From: a virus
Reading direction: 5' to 3' (one strand)
IMG/VR virus record: IMGVR_UViG_3300028829_003842
Location: 1 to 43,258 of that record
Length of the DNA stretch: 43,258 nucleotides
Positions within the stretch are counted from its first letter, which is position 1; each line of letters opens with the position of its first letter. Position numbers and translations under genes: made by a program. Shown here piece by piece: positions 20,422-40,697 of the stretch. The notes under the pieces are model-generated. The model had not been told where the DNA came from. It did not search any database and was given only the letters and a program-made list of their open reading frames with translations.

Positions 20422-21252
20422 ATGGAAAAATTAAATATATCAGTAGTTTTACCTGTAGAATCTTCTAAACATAAAAATTTTACAGACCTGTTTAAATCTT
20501 GTATTGTTTCAGTACAGCAACAAATTAAAGAATCTGTAAGAGGTGAAAATGTTGTAGATGATATTGAGTTGGTTATAGTCCATTCAGGAGAAGAGAGTTT
20601 AGTTGAACAAATTAATAATACGGACTTTAGTGGGTTAACCACTAATGTTATTCATAATGAAGGAGACACGGACTTTAGTACTCAAGTTAATTTAGGTATT
20701 GAAAAGTCATCTCACGAATGGGTGACAGTATTAGAATTTGATGATGAGATATCAAGTATATGGTTTAGAAACGTTTATAAGTATATTAACGCTTACCCAC
20801 ACATAAAAGGGTTTTTACCTATCGTTGTTGATACTGACGAAAATGATACATTTGCTGGATTTACTAATGAAGCTACATTCGCAGCTAACATGAACAGTGA
20901 AATCGGAATACTAACCAACGAGGTATTACTAAACTATCAGAATTTCCAAACGAGTGGAATGGTATTTAAAAAATCAATATTTGACGACTTTGGGGGGTTT
21001 AAGAAATCGTTTAGATTAACCTTTGTGTATGAACTACTATTAAGATTAACTTATAACTCTGTAGAAATTATGACTATACCTAGAATTGGATATAAACACT
21101 CCAATATGAGGGAAGGTTCAATTTTTTGGAATTATAAAAATGGAGATTACCCATTAACTCAAGAAGAAGTTTCTTTTTGGATTGAATCAGCAAAAAAAGA
21201 ACATTTCTTTAAAGATGATAGAGATATAAAATATGAAGTGATTGATATTTAA
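20422..21252 (+). CDS. Glycosyltransferase family 2-like
   Basis: 276 aa. GT2 opening ISVVLPVESSKHKNF, nucleotide-binding strand DDIELVIVHSGEES, and a DxD-like EFDDEISS near residue 103 where the first Asp is replaced by Glu-Phe-Asp-Asp. The acceptor part includes TSGMVFKKSIFDDFGGF and an ending with WNYKNGDYPLTQEE. Likely adds a sugar in the same glycan programme as the upstream GT-B gene. Its stop overlaps the late sigma start (TAATG). Confidence 0.75.
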   Translation: MEKLNISVVLPVESSKHKNFTDLFKSCIVSVQQQIKESVRGENVVDDIELVIVHSGEESLVEQINNTDFSGLTTNVIHNEGDTDFSTQVNLGIEKSSHEWVTVLEFDDEISSIWFRNVYKYINAYPHIKGFLPIVVDTDENDTFAGFTNEATFAANMNSEIGILTNEVLLNYQNFQTSGMVFKKSIFDDFGGFKKSFRLTFVYELLLRLTYNSVEIMTIPRIGYKHSNMREGSIFWNYKNGDYPLTQEEVSFWIESAKKEHFFKDDRDIKYEVIDI

Positions 21253-22004
21253 TGTTATTAAATGAAACGGGAAATACTGTAAATCCTGAAACTAAAGGTA
21301 AGAGGGGACGAAAAGCTAAATCTCAAAATTATTTTGATGTAAGAGAGGAGAAGGCGGTTAGGATGTTCTTGACTGCTTCTACATGGGAGGAAAAAAACAG
21401 CATATATAATGAGTTTTTAAGGGCTCCTTTAGATAAAATGATAGAATCTATCATTAGAAGATATAAGTTATATCGTAAAAATATGGAGTTCAGGGATATT
21501 CATAATGATACCCATTCATTTTTAATGACTAAAGTTGATAAATTTAAACCTGATAAAAATAAAAAGGCTTACTCTTATTTTGGTACTATATGTAAAAACT
21601 ATTTAATGGGTCAAATAATAAAAGACCAAAAAGAACAAAATAGAAAAATATCATATGAGGATATCACGACTAAATTAGAAAGTAGACCTGATATGGTATA
21701 TTATTTAGAGTATGAAAAATTATTACCAGAAAAAATAATAAAAGAGTTCATAAAAGAATTAAATACTTTTATTGATAATACTGATTTAAATAATAATGAA
21801 TTAAAATTAGGATATGCATTAATTGAGTTATTTGAAAATTATGAGGATATTTTTATTGGTACGGATAATAATAAATTTAATAAGAATATCATATTATTAT
21901 CACTTAGAGAAATGACTAATTTAACCACGAAAGAGATAAGAACTTCTATGAAAAAGTTTAAAAATCTATACTTTGATTTGAGTGTTAAATTAAATAATTT
22001 ATAA
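21252..22004 (+). CDS. Late-transcription sigma factor, T4 gp55-like
   Basis: 250 aa. The N-terminus is basic (KGKRGRKAKSQ). The central region resembles sigma region 2: a helix with SIIRRYKLYR, then KVDKFKPDKNKKAYSYFGTI, CKNYLMGQIIKDQKEQNRK, the same order as in gp55-type factors. The C-terminal part is helical and could bind a sliding clamp or co-activator. gp55-type factors direct host RNA polymerase to late promoters with a TATAAATA -10 element, and several such octamers lie in the intergenic gaps here. It sits directly before the tail/baseplate genes. Confidence 0.78.
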   Translation: MLLNETGNTVNPETKGKRGRKAKSQNYFDVREEKAVRMFLTASTWEEKNSIYNEFLRAPLDKMIESIIRRYKLYRKNMEFRDIHNDTHSFLMTKVDKFKPDKNKKAYSYFGTICKNYLMGQIIKDQKEQNRKISYEDITTKLESRPDMVYYLEYEKLLPEKIIKEFIKELNTFIDNTDLNNNELKLGYALIELFENYEDIFIGTDNNKFNKNIILLSLREMTNLTTKEIRTSMKKFKNLYFDLSVKLNNL

Positions 22005-29907: not shown

Positions 29908-31704
29908 TTATCTTAATTCTTTTAAGTCAAATGTTCTAACTCCATCAACTGTAATCTTACCGTAGAAACGGTTGTTCACCATCTTCTTAGCATATCTAGT
30001 CATGATACCCTTGATTGGTGTAAAGTTGAATGGGTTATACATTGTAGGTGTTAACTGAAGCGGTACATACGGTGCATATACATATCCAGTATCAAGTAAT
30101 GATGAACCTTTGTGTCCCAACAACACTGTGTTTGGTGGGAAGTAAGGGTCACGGTAAACTTGATATCTACCTGACAATGTTCCAACTCTTTCAATACCCA
30201 TGTTATACTGGTCCTGGTCAGGAGCAGCGTTTGAAACGTGGAAGTATTCAAGGTCGTCAAAAATAGCTGAAATTTCAGAAGAAACAACAACCCAATTTGC
30301 ACCACCTCTTAAAGTTGACTTATGGATTTGAGCTGAAATCTGATTGATTGCAGTAATCAATGTCTGATTCCAATCCTTTTGGTTATAGTTCACTGAACCG
30401 TTAGAGATTCTTCTCCAACCGTTGTAATCCCATCTTAAACTCCAAGCCGCACCTTTTCTTAAGTCTCTTAAGATTTCACGGTCAATCTCAGCAGCAACCT
30501 GCTCTGACAACAATGCTGTCAATTCAGCTTCCGCATCAATGTTGTGGAATGCTGAGACGTCTTGCGCTAGTTCTGGTGACCATTGTGCTCTTAACTTTCT
30601 TTCTGTAACAGAAACAGTAACAGCGTCAAGGTCAAATGAAACCTCACCAATCTTATCTTCAAACTCAAGACTTTCATAAACTCTGTAATAAGCTGCAAAA
30701 GTATCTCCTGATGCTATAGTGGTTCCTGTATATCCGTCGATTGAACAGTTTGGACATCCTACAACAGGTGTTGAGAAGTCTAACTCTAAATAGATTTTAC
30801 CTGTGACATCACAGATATCGTCGTATCTTCCACCAGGACCAGGATGACTACCTGAATAGAAAGTAGTTTTTTGCTCACTACCATACTGTACAATACCTTT
30901 ACCGTACTTTTGAGTAACTACTCTAAAGTTAAAATATGTATCAGGTGCTCCGTTTTCATAAGTTTCTAATGAAGCTAAGAAATCTTCAGTATCCATTTCA
31001 TTTCCATCAGGTCCGATTAATTTACCAGCTCCTGATGAACTAAATCCTGATAAAACAAAGATTAACGAGCGAACGTTACCGTCAGCAGCTTCTGTACCAG
31101 GTGTACCTGCCGCAGCACCTAAAGCTAACGCCAATGTAGTAGCAACTAATTCACCGTTATTCCATACTGCAGGAACAAGAGTTTTTGTTTGAGCACTCCA
31201 CTGACCTTTTGAATAATCAAATAATCCAGCTGGGTCAGAGTTTGGTGTACTTCCTTCATAAAATCTATCATAAAGGTTAGTTCCTGAGTCATATCCAGCA
31301 GCTGGGTCTGATTCGGTGTTACCGGGTGCACCGAATGGTTGTCTGTGTGAACCTGCACCATCATTACCACTTTGAATTTTTGGTACAAAGTAGAACAACT
31401 TACCGATTGGTAAGTTCATTGCTTGAACTGAAACAATGTCGTTAGCCAACAACTTAGAGAATACTCTTCTGATGATTGGGAAAACAACAGTTTCAAATGA
31501 ACCTGAACTGTCTGAAGCAGATGCTTCGTTTATCAAATGTGACGCTTGGTTTTCATACAATTGCGCCATGTTTTCTTTAATGTGTCCTTTAAGACCGTCG
31601 AGGAACCCTAATTTGTCCCACTTATTGATTGTGTCCTCCTTGATAACTTTTAAGTGCTTAAGACCAATGTTACCAACTAGACCTGATTCTAATAATGCTC
31701 CCAT
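29908..31704 (-). CDS. Major capsid protein, T4 gp23-like
   Basis: 598 aa. The N-terminal half carries the gp23 pattern: LGFLDGLKGHIKENMAQLYE, NQASHLINEAS, then FPIIRRVFSKLLANDIVSVQ and IGKLFYFVPK. The central part is a variable insertion region rich in Gly/Ser. The C-terminal half has DPYFPPNTVLLGHKGSS and TPIKGIMTRYAKKMVNNRFY. This HK97-fold protein builds the hexamers of the capsid; by analogy the N-terminus before about residue 65 may be removed by the prohead protease. It follows the scaffold gene by 27 nt and is the last gene before the terminator. Confidence 0.93.
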   Translation of the reverse strand: MGALLESGLVGNIGLKHLKVIKEDTINKWDKLGFLDGLKGHIKENMAQLYENQASHLINEASASDSSGSFETVVFPIIRRVFSKLLANDIVSVQAMNLPIGKLFYFVPKIQSGNDGAGSHRQPFGAPGNTESDPAAGYDSGTNLYDRFYEGSTPNSDPAGLFDYSKGQWSAQTKTLVPAVWNNGELVATTLALALGAAAGTPGTEAADGNVRSLIFVLSGFSSSGAGKLIGPDGNEMDTEDFLASLETYENGAPDTYFNFRVVTQKYGKGIVQYGSEQKTTFYSGSHPGPGGRYDDICDVTGKIYLELDFSTPVVGCPNCSIDGYTGTTIASGDTFAAYYRVYESLEFEDKIGEVSFDLDAVTVSVTERKLRAQWSPELAQDVSAFHNIDAEAELTALLSEQVAAEIDREILRDLRKGAAWSLRWDYNGWRRISNGSVNYNQKDWNQTLITAINQISAQIHKSTLRGGANWVVVSSEISAIFDDLEYFHVSNAAPDQDQYNMGIERVGTLSGRYQVYRDPYFPPNTVLLGHKGSSLLDTGYVYAPYVPLQLTPTMYNPFNFTPIKGIMTRYAKKMVNNRFYGKITVDGVRTFDLKELR

Positions 31705-33210: not shown

Positions 33211-33420
33211 TTATTCATACACCTCATCGATTTTACTCTCCACACAAGCAGTGATTCTCCAATCATAAACAAAATCTTTAAAGTTTTTAGTGACTTTAGC
33301 CTCAACGTCAGTTACGTTATAACCCTTAACTAATTTTTCCTCTCTGATTTTTTTTACCTTACCCGAATTTTCATCAGGAAGGTCATACTGTACTTTAGCA
33401 ACAAAATATTTTTCGTCCAT
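33211..33420 (-). CDS. Small DUF4494-like protein
   Basis: 69 aa. It resembles DUF4494 in order and spacing: YFVAKVQYDLPDENSGKVKK, then EEKLVKGYNVTDVEAKV and a final ITACVESKIDE strand. DUF4494 is, from memory, found mostly in Bacteroidota and their phages; function unknown. It lies between the protease gene and a terminator, so it is the last gene of the upstream head unit. Confidence 0.6.
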   Translation of the reverse strand: MDEKYFVAKVQYDLPDENSGKVKKIREEKLVKGYNVTDVEAKVTKNFKDFVYDWRITACVESKIDEVYE

Positions 33421-33441: not shown

Positions 33442-34166
33442 TTAATAACCTAAATAATCGGATAACTTTTTCATTAAGTCAACACTTTTACCTAAACTAC
33501 TATCTACATTTGATTCAGTAGCTCTATTCTGAGTTTCTTCTTCAATATTTTCTTCATACTTACCTCTATCGTCTTTATTCAAGAATAAATAAGCTCCGGG
33601 AGTTGAAGGTGATGAAACTAAATCAAAACATATCAATTCAAAATCCTCTTGGACTTCATTTCTTTCTCCTTTCTTCACTAATGAACCAACACCACGAGAA
33701 GATACTCCCATAGTAACCCCCTGTCTCATTAAGTTAGCTGCTTGGTCACCGGGACAAGACACAACACCTCTTTCATGAAAACCTGGTGAGGTTAGTAATT
33801 TAATCTTACCCATAAGAGTGTTACCTTCCCACCACACATCTGTTATAAGATGTGAAACACGGTCTAAATCAATTAAAGAAGATTCGGGGTGGTTAAGTTC
33901 AGATATCGATAATCCCTTTTCGATTGCCTTTTTATAATTATCGGCTTCACGTCTTAATATTTTTTTTCAGGATATACTCTACCGTTTCTATTTGGCGTAT
34001 CAAATTTCTGTAAAGTCGCATAAAACTCAAAGGGTTTAGAGTGTTCTAACTGACCATAGGATTCTTTAATTACTTTAGAGTTCCTACCGTCATTAGGGTT
34101 TATTGACCCAGCATCCCACTCAACTAAAATACCTTTACCTATATCGTTTGGTCCTAATATTTTCAT
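33442..34166 (-). CDS. Prohead maturation protease, gp21-like, split by a frameshift
   Basis: Two frames together encode one protease. Frame 0 from ATG 34166 gives 70 aa ending FDTPNRNGRVYPEKKY and a stop at 33954. The -1 frame continues from 33960 as ILRREADNYKKAIEKGLSIS, with the catalytic-type His in SELNHPES, then WWEGNTLMGKIKLL and the Ser motif MGVSSRGVGSL, ending at 33442. Joined by a -1 shift on GAAAAAAAA the product is 241 aa, close to T4 gp21 (212). Without the shift neither catalytic residue is made. Either an A-run sequencing error or a real programmed slip on A AAA AAA. Confidence 0.85.
33960..33967 (-). other. A8 slippery run at the frame junction of the prohead protease
   Basis: On the coding strand the codons are GAA AAA AAA TAT TAA. 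The heptamer A AAA AAA is in the correct phase for -1 slippage, and the zero frame stops two codons later. A 7-bp complementary pair (33937-33943 with 33907-33913) lies downstream but starts 17 nt away, further than usual for a stimulatory hairpin. Confidence 0.6.
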
Positions 34167-34187: not shown

Positions 34188-34631
34188 TTAGACCAACTCT
34201 TTTGTCGATTTACTCTTATGTACTTTGAAATAATTTATCCCTTTTATGTTGTCTTTGTAGACCGCTCTGAGTATGTCTTTTATTTTTTCCCTCAAGATTA
34301 GGGATTTAAAATCTGTTATCTCTTTAACGAATAAAGTTATTTCTAAGTTCATAAAACTCCTTTTACCTTTTTGAATTCCACTACTCCTTAAGTCTAAATC
34401 CACTATATTAAATTTCTCAAATGTTAAAGGGTCACAAATCTCATGTAATGTCTGTTTTATAGTTTTTTCTAAATAACTTGTTGCTCTTTCCCAATTATCA
34501 AATTCTTTTATGGGTTCTACCCACGTCTGTAATACAATATACAGTGATTTTAAATTTTTTGCATCTACCGTACCATAATGACATTTCACATCACTAAATA
34601 ATTTTAGCTGTGATGTTTTTCCTTTTTTCAT
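34188..34631 (-). CDS. Hypothetical phage protein of the head block
   Basis: 147 aa, mixed alpha/beta, starting MKKGKTSQLKLFSDVKCHYG, with SLYIVLQTWVEPIKEFDNWE and SFMNLEITLFVKEITDFKSL. No signature recognised. In T4 the place between portal and protease holds the small core proteins gp67 and gp68 (gp68 is 141 aa), but I see no sequence evidence for that identity; a neck or tail-completion role is equally possible. Confidence 0.65.
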   Translation of the reverse strand: MKKGKTSQLKLFSDVKCHYGTVDAKNLKSLYIVLQTWVEPIKEFDNWERATSYLEKTIKQTLHEICDPLTFEKFNIVDLDLRSSGIQKGKRSFMNLEITLFVKEITDFKSLILREKIKDILRAVYKDNIKGINYFKVHKSKSTKELV

Positions 34632-34705
34632 ATTATAACATAACTTTAAAAGTTTATTTATTTAAATAAAATATAGTCTAATAATGGTAATATGTCAAAA
34701 ACACA

Positions 34706-34713
34706 TATTTATA
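34706..34713. promoter_or_regulatory. Late-type octamer in the divergent 99-bp gap
   Basis: TATAAATA on the minus strand (75 nt before the ATG at 34631), which reads CATATTTATA on the plus strand (17 nt before the bS21 ATG at 34731). The gap must drive both genes. Another candidate for the minus gene is AAATAAATAAAC nearer its start. Confidence 0.45.
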
Positions 34714-34730
34714 TTATATAAAACCGTATA

Positions 34731-34916
34731 ATGTTAATAGTAAAGGTAAAAAATAAGAATATTGAAGCCGCTTTGAAGAACTATAAATATAAAGTTTATA
34801 GAACTAAACAGATGCAGAAAATCAATGAAAATAAAGAGTATACGAAACCTTCGGTTGAAAGAAGGGAGGAACACAAAAAAGCTATCTACTTAAATAAAAA
34901 AAGAAACGACCTTTAA
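34731..34916 (+). CDS. rpsU: Phage-encoded 30S ribosomal protein bS21
   Basis: 61 aa, against about 65-71 in bacteria. It follows bS21 throughout: MLIVKVKNKNIEAALKNYKY at the N-terminus (compare V-I-K-V-x-E-N-E-x-x-x-x-A-L-R-R-F-K), then EYTKPSVERREEHKKA (compare E-x-Y-x-K-P-T/S-x-x-R-K/R-x-x-K-x-A) and a basic end. Phage bS21 copies are known in pelagiphages and others and are thought to join host ribosomes. It is the only plus-strand gene in the minus-strand head block, in its own divergent unit, with no Shine-Dalgarno sequence in its leader. Its stop overlaps the convergent LamG gene's stop by 4 nt. Confidence 0.8.
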   Translation: MLIVKVKNKNIEAALKNYKYKVYRTKQMQKINENKEYTKPSVERREEHKKAIYLNKKRNDL

Positions 34917-35974
34917 CTGTTAGAGTACCATTGGTCGAAAATATCCAAATTCTTTCTTATCTCAGCATCACTTAAAACTCTATTATATATAAGTAGTGTT
35001 CCCATTCTTATATCACCTCCTCGGTCACCATCCCCACTACCTGTAAATGTAGAACCTAACCTTGGAAAACTGTGTGTGGTTCCGGAACCTAACGCATAAG
35101 TAGTGGCGTTTTCCGCACCGTTATACCAATTACTCGCAGTACCACTGTCAAAAACGGAAACCCAACTATTCCACTCTCCCACATTAAAAACATCCCCATC
35201 CTGCGCCTGCGCAAAGTAATCATGGTTACCCTCAGGTTCACCTAAACCGTTCGTTTCCGCCTCGGGCCAGTACTTTGTAGTACTACCATTTAAAGACCTC
35301 AACGCCATATAGTTAACGAACTTACCCCCGAAAAACGCTTGTGAGTTAGAGTATTGACTACCTCCATTATAATCGCTCCACCAATAGAATAAAAGTGTGG
35401 AGTCTCCGTTTCCGGCTCTTGATATTTCACTATCAAAAGTTAATACTTTTATATTTGATGAGTCATCTGTTTCAACCCTAAAGTAAGCAGGTGAACCTCC
35501 ACCGGGATTAACCCACATAGATGCGTTAGTTAAAGTTCCATCAATATTACTAGTACTACCTGACGGAGCAATGTTGGTCACTGCCGTGCCTGTACCAGGA
35601 TAAGATGAAGTTTTGTTTGGGTCCATATACAGAAGTAATCCGTCTCTTACTACGTCACCATCTAATAGTTGATTGTCGTCCCCTTCAATCGCATCGGCTA
35701 CCTGAGGTACATTCGAGAATGATGTCCCCATTTTGTGATTATAAAATCTTACTAACTCAGTATCATTAGGGGGACAATTTATATGAGGACCATTTCCTGA
35801 CGTATCATATCTATACCATGTATACCCACCTACTGGAGGGTTAATACCGATATACCACCCCTCTAAATCACCATAAGGAACGTTACCGATATTATTTGCA
35901 CTCCATACATTACCATATTGGTCTGCGTCGTTTACGGTCGTATTAGACCATTTAAGATATTTTCTATCCGACAT
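34913..35974 (-). CDS. LamG/ConA-like lectin-fold virion protein in the head operon
   Basis: 353 aa. Residues 1-110 form an N-terminal attachment-type region. From about residue 111 a LamG_3-like jelly roll begins (DGLLLYMDPNKTSSYPGTGT), runs through SDYNGGSQYSNSQAFFGGKF and NWYNGAENATTYALG, and closes with the diagnostic IRMGTLLIYNRVLSDAEIRK. Such domains bind glycans. The gene starts within the stop of the small membrane protein gene (TAATG), so it is in the head unit; a capsid-surface fibre or decoration is a reasonable inference. Confidence 0.7.
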   Translation of the reverse strand: MSDRKYLKWSNTTVNDADQYGNVWSANNIGNVPYGDLEGWYIGINPPVGGYTWYRYDTSGNGPHINCPPNDTELVRFYNHKMGTSFSNVPQVADAIEGDDNQLLDGDVVRDGLLLYMDPNKTSSYPGTGTAVTNIAPSGSTSNIDGTLTNASMWVNPGGGSPAYFRVETDDSSNIKVLTFDSEISRAGNGDSTLLFYWWSDYNGGSQYSNSQAFFGGKFVNYMALRSLNGSTTKYWPEAETNGLGEPEGNHDYFAQAQDGDVFNVGEWNSWVSVFDSGTASNWYNGAENATTYALGSGTTHSFPRLGSTFTGSGDGDRGGDIRMGTLLIYNRVLSDAEIRKNLDIFDQWYSNS

Positions 35975-36961: not shown

Positions 36962-38872
36962 TCAATCATTTAGTAATGCGTTCAATTTATCTTCAATTTC
37001 ACCTAACGACTGTCTTCCTTTAGATAAGTCTAATGTAGTTTTTCCATTAATAAAATCATCTTCTAATAATATATCTAAATCTTTATTACTAATAAATCTT
37101 TCAGGAGTTATCTCCCCACCGGTATCACCACCGGTATCACCACCTAAGTCACCACCTAAGTCACCACCTAAGTCACCACCTAAGTCACCACCTAAGTCAC
37201 CACCTAAATCACCACCTAAGTCACCACCTAAGTCACCACCTAAGTCACCAGTTGACATTCCTGCCGTATCACCTACTCCGGAGTCTGTTGTTTCGTCACC
37301 CATAGCATCACCACCTTCACCAGGTCTATCACCATATAACTTGTCTATATTAGCAAATATACCTGTCTTACTTATTACTTCAGATGTCTTTTCTAATTCA
37401 GCGGCAACTGCCTTTTCCATTCTTTGTTGTTGAATATCCAACTTAATTTCATCATCACTAAATCCAAGAATGTGTTTCTTAGCCCAAGACGATGAAACAG
37501 GTAGAATACCATTACCTGGGTCAGTAACCGCATCTCTATAAAGTTGTATTTTTTGTGTCCATTGCTCCATCTTTAATAAGTCTGCCTGTGCAGACGGATT
37601 AGTTAATCCTAAAGTAAAGTTACCCAATTCATCTTCAAAACCTAAAAGATATAGATGAACTATAGCAATTTTGTTAAGTTCTTGAACCATAGATTTCTGT
37701 ATTCTATTTATAGTTCTAGCAAACCTAATATCTTGTAAAGATAAGCTTTTACCATCTCCAACTACCTCTTCAAAACCTAAGAAAGCTTTAGGCACCCTCA
37801 AAGAAGTTAATAATTTTTTTTGTATATACTCAATATCGGCAATTTCAGATAGGTTTTGAGCCCCTGGTAATGTATCTATAGGATTAGGTGCGTTAGGGTC
37901 CCTAACGGGAATAAAATAGTCTTGGTCGACAGCCATTTGATTATATCTTAAGTCCACATTTCCATTGTTTGAATCGACTACCTGGTCTCTTTTGAACTTA
38001 TTAGCCACTCGTTGTACGTAAGGTTCGACATCCTTATCATCCATATTACCTACAAATATCTTAAATACTCTTCTTTCGGGAGCTCTAGACGTTCTGTAAA
38101 TTAACATAGCATCTTCTGATAGTATCAACTGTTTCCAAATTCTTCTACCTTTTTCCAACATAGATGTTCCGTATGGTAGTTTTCTATCATCACCTAACAA
38201 TCTGAAGTGAGCAACTTCCCACGTATTAAAAGTAATATCTTTATTCTGCCACAAAAATTTTAATGAGTCATTTTCACTTTCAGTTGAGTTCCTTTCGGGT
38301 TTAATCTTCATACCTCTCTCCTGTCTAGTAATCTCAATATTAGGTAGTTGTTGTGCCCCCATAATACCTTTTTCAGGGTCTAATTTTAAATACACAAAAT
38401 TATCACCGTACTTACATGTGTTACGTGTCCACATGGGTAAGTTAGTATTAATATCTAATCTATTATTAAATAAATCGGCTAAAACTGATTTTATTCTTTT
38501 ACTTTCAGAATAAATTTGTAATATATACCCATCTTCGTCGGGAGTGGTAGACTCTTCAGAATAAATGTCTAAAGCGGCTGAAATTTCAGGAGTATATTCC
38601 ATACTTTCATAGTCATAAAAAGATGCTAAACGTGTGGGTTCATAATAAACGGCTTGAGTATATAAATTGTTTTCGATTTTTTGCCATTGCTGACCTAAAT
38701 ATAATGTTTGTTGAGCTTGTAATTTCTCTCTCTCGTATTCTTTTTTGTCGGTAGTTTTTAATATTTGTTTTTTATCAAAATTATAAACTGGGGCTTGTTG
38801 GTCTAAGGTAGAGTCCGGTCCAAATACCTTAGTCAACCTTTGCCATATAGTAAAATTGTTATTATCAGCCAT
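36962..38872 (-). CDS. Portal protein, T4 gp20-like
   Basis: 636 aa. gp20-type landmarks: LASFYDYESMEYTPEISAAL, LDIYSEESTTPDEDGYILQI, WTRNTCKYGDNFVYLKLDPE, then APERRVFKIFVGNMDDKD and the clip/stem region ADIEYIQKKLLTSLRVPKAF with GKSLSLQDIRFARTINRIQK. It forms the dodecameric DNA gate of the head. The C-terminal tail after residue 530 is not gp20-like: it holds nine GGDL and two GGDT units, followed by a conserved-looking 45-aa end (ITPERFISNKDLDILLEDDF). It lies between terminase and the helical core candidate. An ATATTTATT sequence lies 9 nt before the start. Confidence 0.92.
   Translation of the reverse strand: MADNNNFTIWQRLTKVFGPDSTLDQQAPVYNFDKKQILKTTDKKEYEREKLQAQQTLYLGQQWQKIENNLYTQAVYYEPTRLASFYDYESMEYTPEISAALDIYSEESTTPDEDGYILQIYSESKRIKSVLADLFNNRLDINTNLPMWTRNTCKYGDNFVYLKLDPEKGIMGAQQLPNIEITRQERGMKIKPERNSTESENDSLKFLWQNKDITFNTWEVAHFRLLGDDRKLPYGTSMLEKGRRIWKQLILSEDAMLIYRTSRAPERRVFKIFVGNMDDKDVEPYVQRVANKFKRDQVVDSNNGNVDLRYNQMAVDQDYFIPVRDPNAPNPIDTLPGAQNLSEIADIEYIQKKLLTSLRVPKAFLGFEEVVGDGKSLSLQDIRFARTINRIQKSMVQELNKIAIVHLYLLGFEDELGNFTLGLTNPSAQADLLKMEQWTQKIQLYRDAVTDPGNGILPVSSSWAKKHILGFSDDEIKLDIQQQRMEKAVAAELEKTSEVISKTGIFANIDKLYGDRPGEGGDAMGDETTDSGVGDTAGMSTGDLGGDLGGDLGGDLGGDLGGDLGGDLGGDLGGDLGGDTGGDTGGEITPERFISNKDLDILLEDDFINGKTTLDLSKGRQSLGEIEDKLNALLND
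37116..37250 (-). repeat. 12-bp tandem repeat (GGDL/GGDT) in the portal gene
   Basis: Eleven near-identical 12-bp units, differing at the Leu/Thr codon and one silent change. They encode an acidic, flexible Gly-Gly-Asp-Leu linker between the portal core and its last 50 residues. Confidence 0.93.
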
Positions 38873-38915: not shown

Positions 38916-40697
38916 TTATCTACGATTACCTCCAAATAACCAACCGTAATCCTCATAATCTTTTTTAGTGTAACCATCAATTCGTCTATGATGATTGTGT
39001 TGATTGGCTGGCATTACAGGTAAACCTGGATTGAATTCCTTAGATGAGTTTTTTACTGGAGTCTCATTAACCAACCAACTTTCCATCATAGCCTTTGTTT
39101 GGTCTGTCACCTTTTCAAGTTTAGTGAAAGAATTTTCGCCGACATATATTGCCATGGCCATAGCCATAATAAGGTCGTCGTGTTGACCTTTAATATGGTC
39201 AGGTCTTCCGTTTACATAAACAAAAGTATTTAGTTCATTCATAAGACGTGTAGAACGAACAATAAAATTATGTCTTAAAGCCTCCTCAAAAGAAGCCACA
39301 ATTTGAACTCTCTTCGAATTAAAGTTTAGACCAGGTATTTTCTCTATAGTGGAGGGGTTATACTTCCATTTATCGGCAACATTAGTACCTTCAACATATA
39401 AATCTTTATAATTCATTTCTTGCAATTTTCTTGCGGTAGAAACTCCCATACCGCCAGTAATATCGATAACTACAAATGCTGAATACATTGTCGCCCATTT
39501 GAATGCAACCTCAGCCGCGACATCAGGAGGTATTTTACCTAAATACTCTAAAACCTGTTCCCTCTCATCAAAATCTATAATACAAAAGGTAGTAAAGTCT
39601 TCACTGTCACCACGAGATACGTCAATACCCATAATATATTTGTGACCAACAACAGGTTCTTTCCATTGCCATAACGCACCACCCATAAACTTGTTTTCTG
39701 GTTCAACAATAAAGTTTTCCTTTATTTTTTCCACAGTATCATTAGGTATTACGTTATCACCTGAACCCAAGAAATTACACTCTAATTCCTGAGCAATTTT
39801 ACGTCTATCAAACTTAAGTTTCTTAGCCATACCCTCAAACCACGTAGAATACGGTTTGTACCCTTCAAGAAATTTAGATTTAATTTCTTCAAAATTTCTT
39901 TCCATAGGAGATATATGACCATACTCAATAATAATTTCGTCGTCATTGTAATCCTCCCTATTTAACATATAATGAACAATATCATTACATTTAATAAGTT
40001 TTAAATCTTTAGCGTACCGAGGGTCACGATACCAAAACATTTCAGTAATTTTAAAGTCATTCATACCCCTTAAACACTGGTCGTAAATAGAGTAATATAT
40101 TGGGTCGAATCCATTAGGTGTGGATATTACAATTACCTTACCTCCTGTAGATAGGGATGCCATACACGCAGACCAAAAGTCATTATCAGCCTCAATAAAT
40201 GCCGCTTCGTCAAACACAAGAATCGTAGGGGTATATCCACGAAGTGCGTCTTTTGATGTTGCGACTGACTTTACTTCACACCCATTAGTTAATTTATAAT
40301 GTCTTTGAGAGTTTTTCTCGTTGGAGAAGTCTACACCGAACCAAGAAGGCCACTGGTCCATAAAAGCCCTGATTTTACTTGCCATCTCAACAGACGTATC
40401 AAGTTTATTGGCAATTATAAGAATTTTTTCTGGCTTAGTTTTAGAGGCTGTGACTAACTTTTTAGATATCCAAGCGGATGTTACGGTAGATACTCCTGCC
40501 TGTCTATATTTAAGAGCTATATTTTCTTCAAAGGTATCATAATCATTTATTAAATACTCCTGGTCAGGAAATAATTTTAAAGGAACATATTTAGACTGAG
40601 TATTATCATAAGTCTGTAAATATGTTTTTAATGCATACGAGGTGTCTTTTACACACCTCGCATATTCTAATAATACCTTTTCTTTTGTTAACGCCAT
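38916..40697 (-). CDS. Terminase large subunit, gp17-like
   Basis: 593 aa. ATPase domain: the deviant P-loop KYRQAGVSTVTSAW (residues 64-76, with Arg and Gln rather than a Lys before the Ser/Thr), Walker B ILVFDEAAF near residue 160, and coupling motif VISTPNG. Nuclease domain: MGIDVSRGDSEDFTTF near residue 355 (first catalytic Asp), VVIDITGGMG, and the last Asp in GQHDDLIMAMAMA. The enzyme cuts concatemers and pumps DNA into the prohead through the portal. No small terminase was recognised in the window. Confidence 0.93.
   Translation of the reverse strand: MALTKEKVLLEYARCVKDTSYALKTYLQTYDNTQSKYVPLKLFPDQEYLINDYDTFEENIALKYRQAGVSTVTSAWISKKLVTASKTKPEKILIIANKLDTSVEMASKIRAFMDQWPSWFGVDFSNEKNSQRHYKLTNGCEVKSVATSKDALRGYTPTILVFDEAAFIEADNDFWSACMASLSTGGKVIVISTPNGFDPIYYSIYDQCLRGMNDFKITEMFWYRDPRYAKDLKLIKCNDIVHYMLNREDYNDDEIIIEYGHISPMERNFEEIKSKFLEGYKPYSTWFEGMAKKLKFDRRKIAQELECNFLGSGDNVIPNDTVEKIKENFIVEPENKFMGGALWQWKEPVVGHKYIMGIDVSRGDSEDFTTFCIIDFDEREQVLEYLGKIPPDVAAEVAFKWATMYSAFVVIDITGGMGVSTARKLQEMNYKDLYVEGTNVADKWKYNPSTIEKIPGLNFNSKRVQIVASFEEALRHNFIVRSTRLMNELNTFVYVNGRPDHIKGQHDDLIMAMAMAIYVGENSFTKLEKVTDQTKAMMESWLVNETPVKNSSKEFNPGLPVMPANQHNHHRRIDGYTKKDYEDYGWLFGGNRR

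Follow-up and report, generated by a model that had tools for sequence, protein, structure and literature searches.

Why does a phage carry a gene for the ribosomal protein bS21 in the midst of its head genes, and what would the product do to the ribosomes of its host? In Bacteroidia a pocket made up of bS21, bS18 and bS6 hides the anti-Shine-Dalgarno (anti-SD) sequence, and most mRNAs are SD-less; in Flavobacteriales the rpsU gene is autoregulated. Ribosomes lacking bS21 initiate faster on the extended-SD rpsU mRNA and slower on SD-less mRNAs (McNutt et al. 2023, PMC9976891). We analysed a linear IMG/VR virus record of 43 kb (43,258 nucleotides; the window), which is itself a fragment. A first-pass annotation of this sequence had pointed to a 61-aa bS21 on the plus strand among minus-strand head genes, and had suggested that the phage copy may escape the autoregulation of the host and shift ribosomes towards AU-rich, SD-less phage leaders.

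The ATG-initiated open reading frame at 34731-34916 (+) encodes 61 aa (MLIVKVKNKNIEAALKNYKYKVYRTKQMQKINENKEYTKPSVERREEHKKAIYLNKKRNDL), and family searches, matches to bS21 chains in the PDB and alignments all bear on its identity. It matched the Ribosomal_S21 family (PF01165) with E=4.3e-10 and 39.6 bits, above the cut-off of 27. The stricter equivalog model TIGR00030 gave 25 bits, narrowly below its cut-off of 28.95, and this was counted against our main reading of the protein. By sequence, the closest solved relatives were the bS21 chains of 9i5v and 7jil (F. johnsoniae), and since these are Bacteroidota bS21 proteins this result was counted in favour of a phage bS21. The AlphaFold model (pLDDT 80, pTM 0.36) contained helices at residues 11-25, 27-34 and 40-60. 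A Foldseek search with this model returned a single weak and uninformative match, which is unsurprising, since the protein is extended and the model did not include rRNA.

The gene is the only one on the plus strand between minus-strand genes of a T4-like head module, as the earlier annotation had it. These encode the gp23-type major capsid protein (29908-31704; PF07068, E=1.5e-72), the head maturation protease (33442-34166; phrog_207, E=2.2e-22), the gp20-type portal protein (36962-38872; PF07230, E=3.2e-78) and the terminase large subunit, TerL (38916-40697; phrog_2, E=4.3e-39). The window thus has the layout described by Chen et al., with bS21 on the strand opposite to the TerL, portal, protease and capsid genes. 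The protease gene, which is one 240-aa frame in relatives, is broken in the window into pieces at 33442-33837 and 33954-34166 (-), with two extra bases at 33960-33961 compared with the relative L003; the split may reflect either a genuine frameshift or faulty assembly. The protease gene adjoins a 69-aa gene (33211-33420, -) that matches the C-terminal half of DUF4494 (E=3e-9). On the other side, a gene for a LamG-like protein of 353 aa (34913-35974, -) converges on bS21 with an overlap of 4 bp. Few relatives carry it (L002, L022, L023, L036 and L042), and it is missing even from L003, the bS21 of which is identical to that of the window. It is a variable insertion: a cassette, swapped or mobile, that occupies a set position.

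A plus-strand block elsewhere in the window carries dUTPase, exonuclease, PhoH and sugar genes, a repertoire resembling that of published bS21 phages. The nearest named isolates by TerL were the Flavobacterium phages immuto, at 26%; a nucleotide search of phage records with the window gave no match, and neither did an Rfam search of the window. One relative (L010) lies in a contig of 270 kb, in which 12 tRNA genes are clustered in one region (L198:3842-16421); the window has none. The source phage is probably a jumbo T4-like myophage of Bacteroidota, with a host placed to phylum only.

That 34731-34916 is a genuine phage bS21 gene, standing alone on the plus strand among minus-strand head genes, was confirmed by comparison with relatives. 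The same divergent layout recurred in 35 close and 153 wider relatives (80 of the 153 were kept), and dN/dS ranged from 0.05 to 0.33 where computable, indicating purifying selection; together these place the gene beyond chance. Each of six long relatives had one bS21 copy. A tree built from 145 bS21 proteins placed the 68 phage sequences on one side of a branch with an SH-aLRT of 87, which for this short alignment is moderate support. The phages studied by Chen et al. (2022, PMC9723584) likewise carry bS21 proteins that separate from the chromosomal ones.

Which parts of the protein have been kept and which have changed? Alignment placed Tyr53 of the window protein at Tyr54 of F. johnsoniae bS21, the aromatic residue involved in hiding the anti-SD. 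All 67 phage proteins that cover this position have an aromatic-type residue there (Y in 60, H in 5 and F in 2), so the proposed alignment of residues contacting the anti-SD came out in favour of a working bS21. Much of the C-terminal half is also conserved in phage copies. The N-terminal helix differs: at window positions 17, 20, 22 and 23 the host has R, R, F and D, and the phage proteins mostly N/Q, Y/F, V and Y.

These patterns bear on three alternative explanations. That the protein is a bS21-derived regulator or a virion component rather than a working ribosomal protein would fit its place in the head block and the impairment of E. coli translation in vitro by a viral bS21 (PMC6375957). 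We regard this as highly improbable, given the conservation of the stacking aromatic and of residues in the C-terminal half, and given that a phage homologue does enter 70S ribosomes (PMC6375957). A second explanation is plain supply: the phage would top up a loosely held, late-assembling protein and so keep 30S subunits complete when host synthesis fails, with no selectivity, no meaningful escape and an SD-less leader that is simply the phage default. Conservation of Tyr53 and of much of the C-terminal half would allow such host-like working, but pure supply needs neither the consistent differences in the N-terminal helix nor the split between phage and chromosomal proteins in the tree, and we consider it rather unlikely. 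The third, put forward by Chen et al. (PMC9723584), is that the diverged N-terminal helix, near the mRNA path, confers a preference for phage messages late in infection. It agrees with the consistency of the N-terminal differences, with the reported co-expression with structural genes (PMC9723584) and with the linkage to a conserved partner gene described below. Against it, no recognisable feature of phage mRNAs was found on which such a preference could act: an AU-rich start without an SD is typical of phage genes, and the majority of host mRNAs lack an SD too (PMC9976891). We consider this third explanation improbable.

The partner is a 147-aa gene at 34188-34631 (-), conserved beside bS21. 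In relatives with enough flanking sequence it encodes about 141-165 aa and starts divergently about 90-114 nt from the bS21 start; conversely, a search with the partner-gene alignment found a divergent bS21 alongside in 76 of the 79 loci having enough flank. L252, L273 and L276 keep the partner gene and the TTTTGACA box (see below), with bS21 undetectable within the fetched flank, and may represent either natural losses or ancestral states. Chen et al. described a bS21_CN gene (fam498) that is co-transcribed with bS21 and has a similar phylogeny, and the partner gene probably corresponds to it. AlphaFold predicted a confident alpha/beta fold (pLDDT 87) for the partner; a fold search yielded no solved relative and no function, and the only clear structural match was an uncharacterised Myoviridae protein.

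Between the two start codons lies a 99-bp intergenic region (34632-34730; about 89-114 nt in relatives) with putative promoters in both directions, which agrees with the earlier description of bS21 as a divergent unit with its own leader. On the bS21 side, a TATTTAT element (34706-34712, +) is located 25 nt upstream of the start codon. This element occurred in 67 of 71 bS21 leaders, against 4.2 expected from shuffles. In the 270-kb relative it was present 13-32 nt upstream of 31 of the 128 genes with a free upstream stretch, against 3.5 expected (200 shuffles, maximum 9), which points to a phage-wide promoter-like motif. If TATTTAT acts as a -10 box, the bS21 mRNA would have a leader of only about 10-12 nt. 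Toward the partner gene, a predicted TTGACA-N17-TATATT promoter (34670-34698, -) was recognised, the TTTTGACA box of which reads TGTCAAAA on the plus strand. The corresponding TTGACA-N17-TA..TT pattern was found in 50 of 71 leaders, compared with 0.7 in shuffles, and the spacer was 17 in 49 of the 50. Judged by these motif statistics, both promoter motifs are deeply conserved.

Several other readings of the gap were dropped. Conserved bases that might have marked a hairpin or a mini-ORF (ATG TCA AAA ...) in the leaders of near relatives belong to the opposite promoter's box, which is kept in lineages without the mini-ORF, and a 1-nt deletion in L023 and L036 shifts the mini-ORF frame; this reading was rejected. 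A host-type TAnnTTTG promoter for bS21, seen as TATATTTG in some relatives, is degenerate in the window and was not relied on. The idea that TATTTAT marks strictly late promoters was also abandoned, since the motif precedes units with non-structural genes too and most genes carrying it are unannotated. The 270-kb relative encodes a sigma-70 region 2 protein (G012:C1:246879-247088; locus L304), and a 250-aa protein of the window (21252-22004, +) gave a weak Sigma70_r2 match of 15.4 bits, below the cut-off; these two proteins are candidate sigma factors for TATTTAT promoters.

How strongly would the bS21 leader pair with the ribosome? We computed the duplex dG between the last 25 nt before the start codon and the 16S tail AUCACCUCCUUUCU, and took pairing below -13 kcal/mol as the extended SD of an autoregulated rpsU. 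The window leader gave +0.5 kcal/mol, so the earlier statement that it has no SD was correct and an extended SD is likewise absent. Across 71 distinct phage bS21 leaders the median was -1.0 and the minimum -12.2 kcal/mol, with 11 below -5. Thus none of the 71 fell below -13 kcal/mol, whereas 34 did among the 72 canonical chromosomal rpsU leaders that could be read. The chromosomal sample was picked for resemblance to phage bS21 and does not represent the phylum at large; the 72 exclude seven divergent copies as well as L161, the leader of which is masked. The strong leaders ranged from about -17 to -23 kcal/mol and came nearly all from Flavobacteriaceae. The rpsU genes of Prolixibacteraceae and Crocinitomicaceae-like bacteria mostly showed weak pairing without an extended SD. 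The strong SD that the first-pass annotation had ascribed to cellular rpsU was seen here almost exclusively in Flavobacteriaceae, and half of the sampled chromosomal genes do not share it.

A missing SD on bS21 is, on the other hand, nothing special to this gene. As a control we examined 279 translation starts of the 270-kb relative, 9.7% of which paired better than -5 kcal/mol, versus 26% of control stretches; phage starts are AU-rich and SD-less, and SD-lessness is a genome-wide rule of the phage. The notion of an SD-less leader peculiar to bS21 was rejected on these grounds, and since the missing SD is the phage default, selection on bS21 is not required to explain it. Moreover, five sister lineages (L034, L038, L043, L054 and L063) have a moderate SD before bS21 (GGAG or AGGAG, -7.3 to -9.5 kcal/mol), often with one before the partner gene as well (-6.7), and the distant phage L257 has one of -12.2. 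These SDs, from -7.3 to -12.2, were counted against an escape from host feedback, and together with the genome-wide SD-lessness they favour the supply explanation.

The explanation that we prefer, with slightly better than even confidence, is that a working phage bS21, expressed from its own phage promoter, replaces host bS21 on the 30S subunit and that the swap is driven by asymmetric feedback. It starts from features that can be read directly in the sequences (family membership, purifying selection, the aromatic residue, the missing extended SD, the promoter motifs and the partner gene), and from these we infer incorporation into ribosomes, repression of host rpsU and escape of the phage copy. 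During infection the phage protein would take the place of host bS21. With the stacking aromatic kept (Tyr53), ribosomes carrying it should keep the anti-SD hidden, and this would lower host rpsU synthesis wherever rpsU is autoregulated through an extended SD. The phage bS21 mRNA, having no extended SD, would stay on and be favoured by bS21-replete ribosomes. Any preference for phage mRNAs would more likely reside in the diverged N-terminal helix: SD-lessness alone cannot favour phage messages, as phage and host mRNAs are both mostly SD-less (PMC9976891), and the suggested shift of ribosomes towards SD-less phage leaders is not upheld.

Escape from autoregulation fares better. It fits the anatomy, a strong SD on rpsU of Flavobacteriaceae and none on the phage gene, and is plausible; the phage-wide lack of SDs and the SDs of sister lineages weaken it, and it depends on the rpsU of a host that is placed no further than phylum. 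Given such a host, the rpsU genes of Prolixibacteraceae and Crocinitomicaceae-like bacteria were also counted against it. Against asymmetric feedback as a whole we counted the near inactivity of ribosomes with viral bS21 in E. coli in vitro (PMC6375957). In its favour we counted the entry of a viral bS21 into E. coli 70S ribosomes (PMC6375957), the transcription of phage bS21 with structural genes (PMC9723584), the phage-wide promoter motif before bS21 and the extra chromosomal copies described next. Should the feedback reading be right, the single SD-dependent circuit known in Bacteroidota would be what phages use to exchange a ribosomal protein, and phage takeover would be tied to specialised ribosomes.

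Chromosomes, too, hold bS21 copies that lack an extended SD. Six Flavobacteriaceae genomes (several Muricauda/Allomuricauda, Croceivirga and Planktosalinus) have two to four bS21 genes, and second copies occur in further genomes (multi-copy loci L162-L183 in genomes G002-G007, and L286, L296 and L298, with second copies at L296 and L298). In all six the canonical copy has an extended SD (-17.5 to -22.3 kcal/mol), which is missing from each of the ten additional copies (-0.4 to -9.1). We know of no earlier report of such extra copies without an extended SD in Bacteroidota. Paralogues of bS21 have been listed for other phyla by McNutt et al. (PMC9976891). The chromosomal paralogues suggest that bacteria may also keep bS21 variants outside the SD circuit, and ribosome heterogeneity in Bacteroidota is possible. 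More tentatively still, and with more doubt than belief, the extra viral and chromosomal copies might form a class uncoupled from extended-SD feedback, with the phage version serving as a takeover switch: by hiding the anti-SD and having no SD of its own, it would turn host bS21 synthesis off and keep its own supply on, and the divergent 147-aa protein might act as a helper, for instance by removing host bS21.

The closest known systems are the Bacteroidetes myophages of Chen et al. (2022, PMC9723584), in which bS21 lies reversed within the structural gene block and is transcribed with the structural genes. The window shares with them the strand of bS21 relative to TerL, portal, prohead protease and capsid genes, the kept Tyr54 equivalent with a changed N-terminal helix, a conserved hypothetical neighbour, and PhoH, dUTPase and sugar genes. 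Those phages are from freshwater, with AT-rich genomes of about 290-330 kb; our data come from a 43-kb fragment and the 270-kb contig of L010. The divergent bS21 among head genes is thus already published. Promoters, leaders and autoregulation did not come up when the text of Chen et al. was searched; the missing strong SD and the possible escape are a new and testable part, beside the genome-wide SD-lessness, the conserved promoter motifs and the extra chromosomal copies.

Pelagiphage HTVC008M also has a viral bS21 in a myovirus, but of an alphaproteobacterial lineage with no tie to anti-SD sequestration; viral bS21 was incorporated into E. coli 70S ribosomes, and the in vitro activity of such ribosomes, measured in an E. 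coli system, was about 5% (Mizuno et al. 2019, PMC6375957). The bS21 paralogues of, for example, Francisella (PMC9578407, cited in PMC9976891) resemble the phage gene in that alternative copies may change ribosome behaviour, although they are chromosomal and belong to another phylum. Finally, rpsU of Flavobacteriales (PMC9976891) is of the same family, is transcribed alone and encodes the aromatic residue that sequesters the 16S tail; unlike the phage gene, with its +0.5 kcal/mol, it carries an extended SD below -13 kcal/mol.
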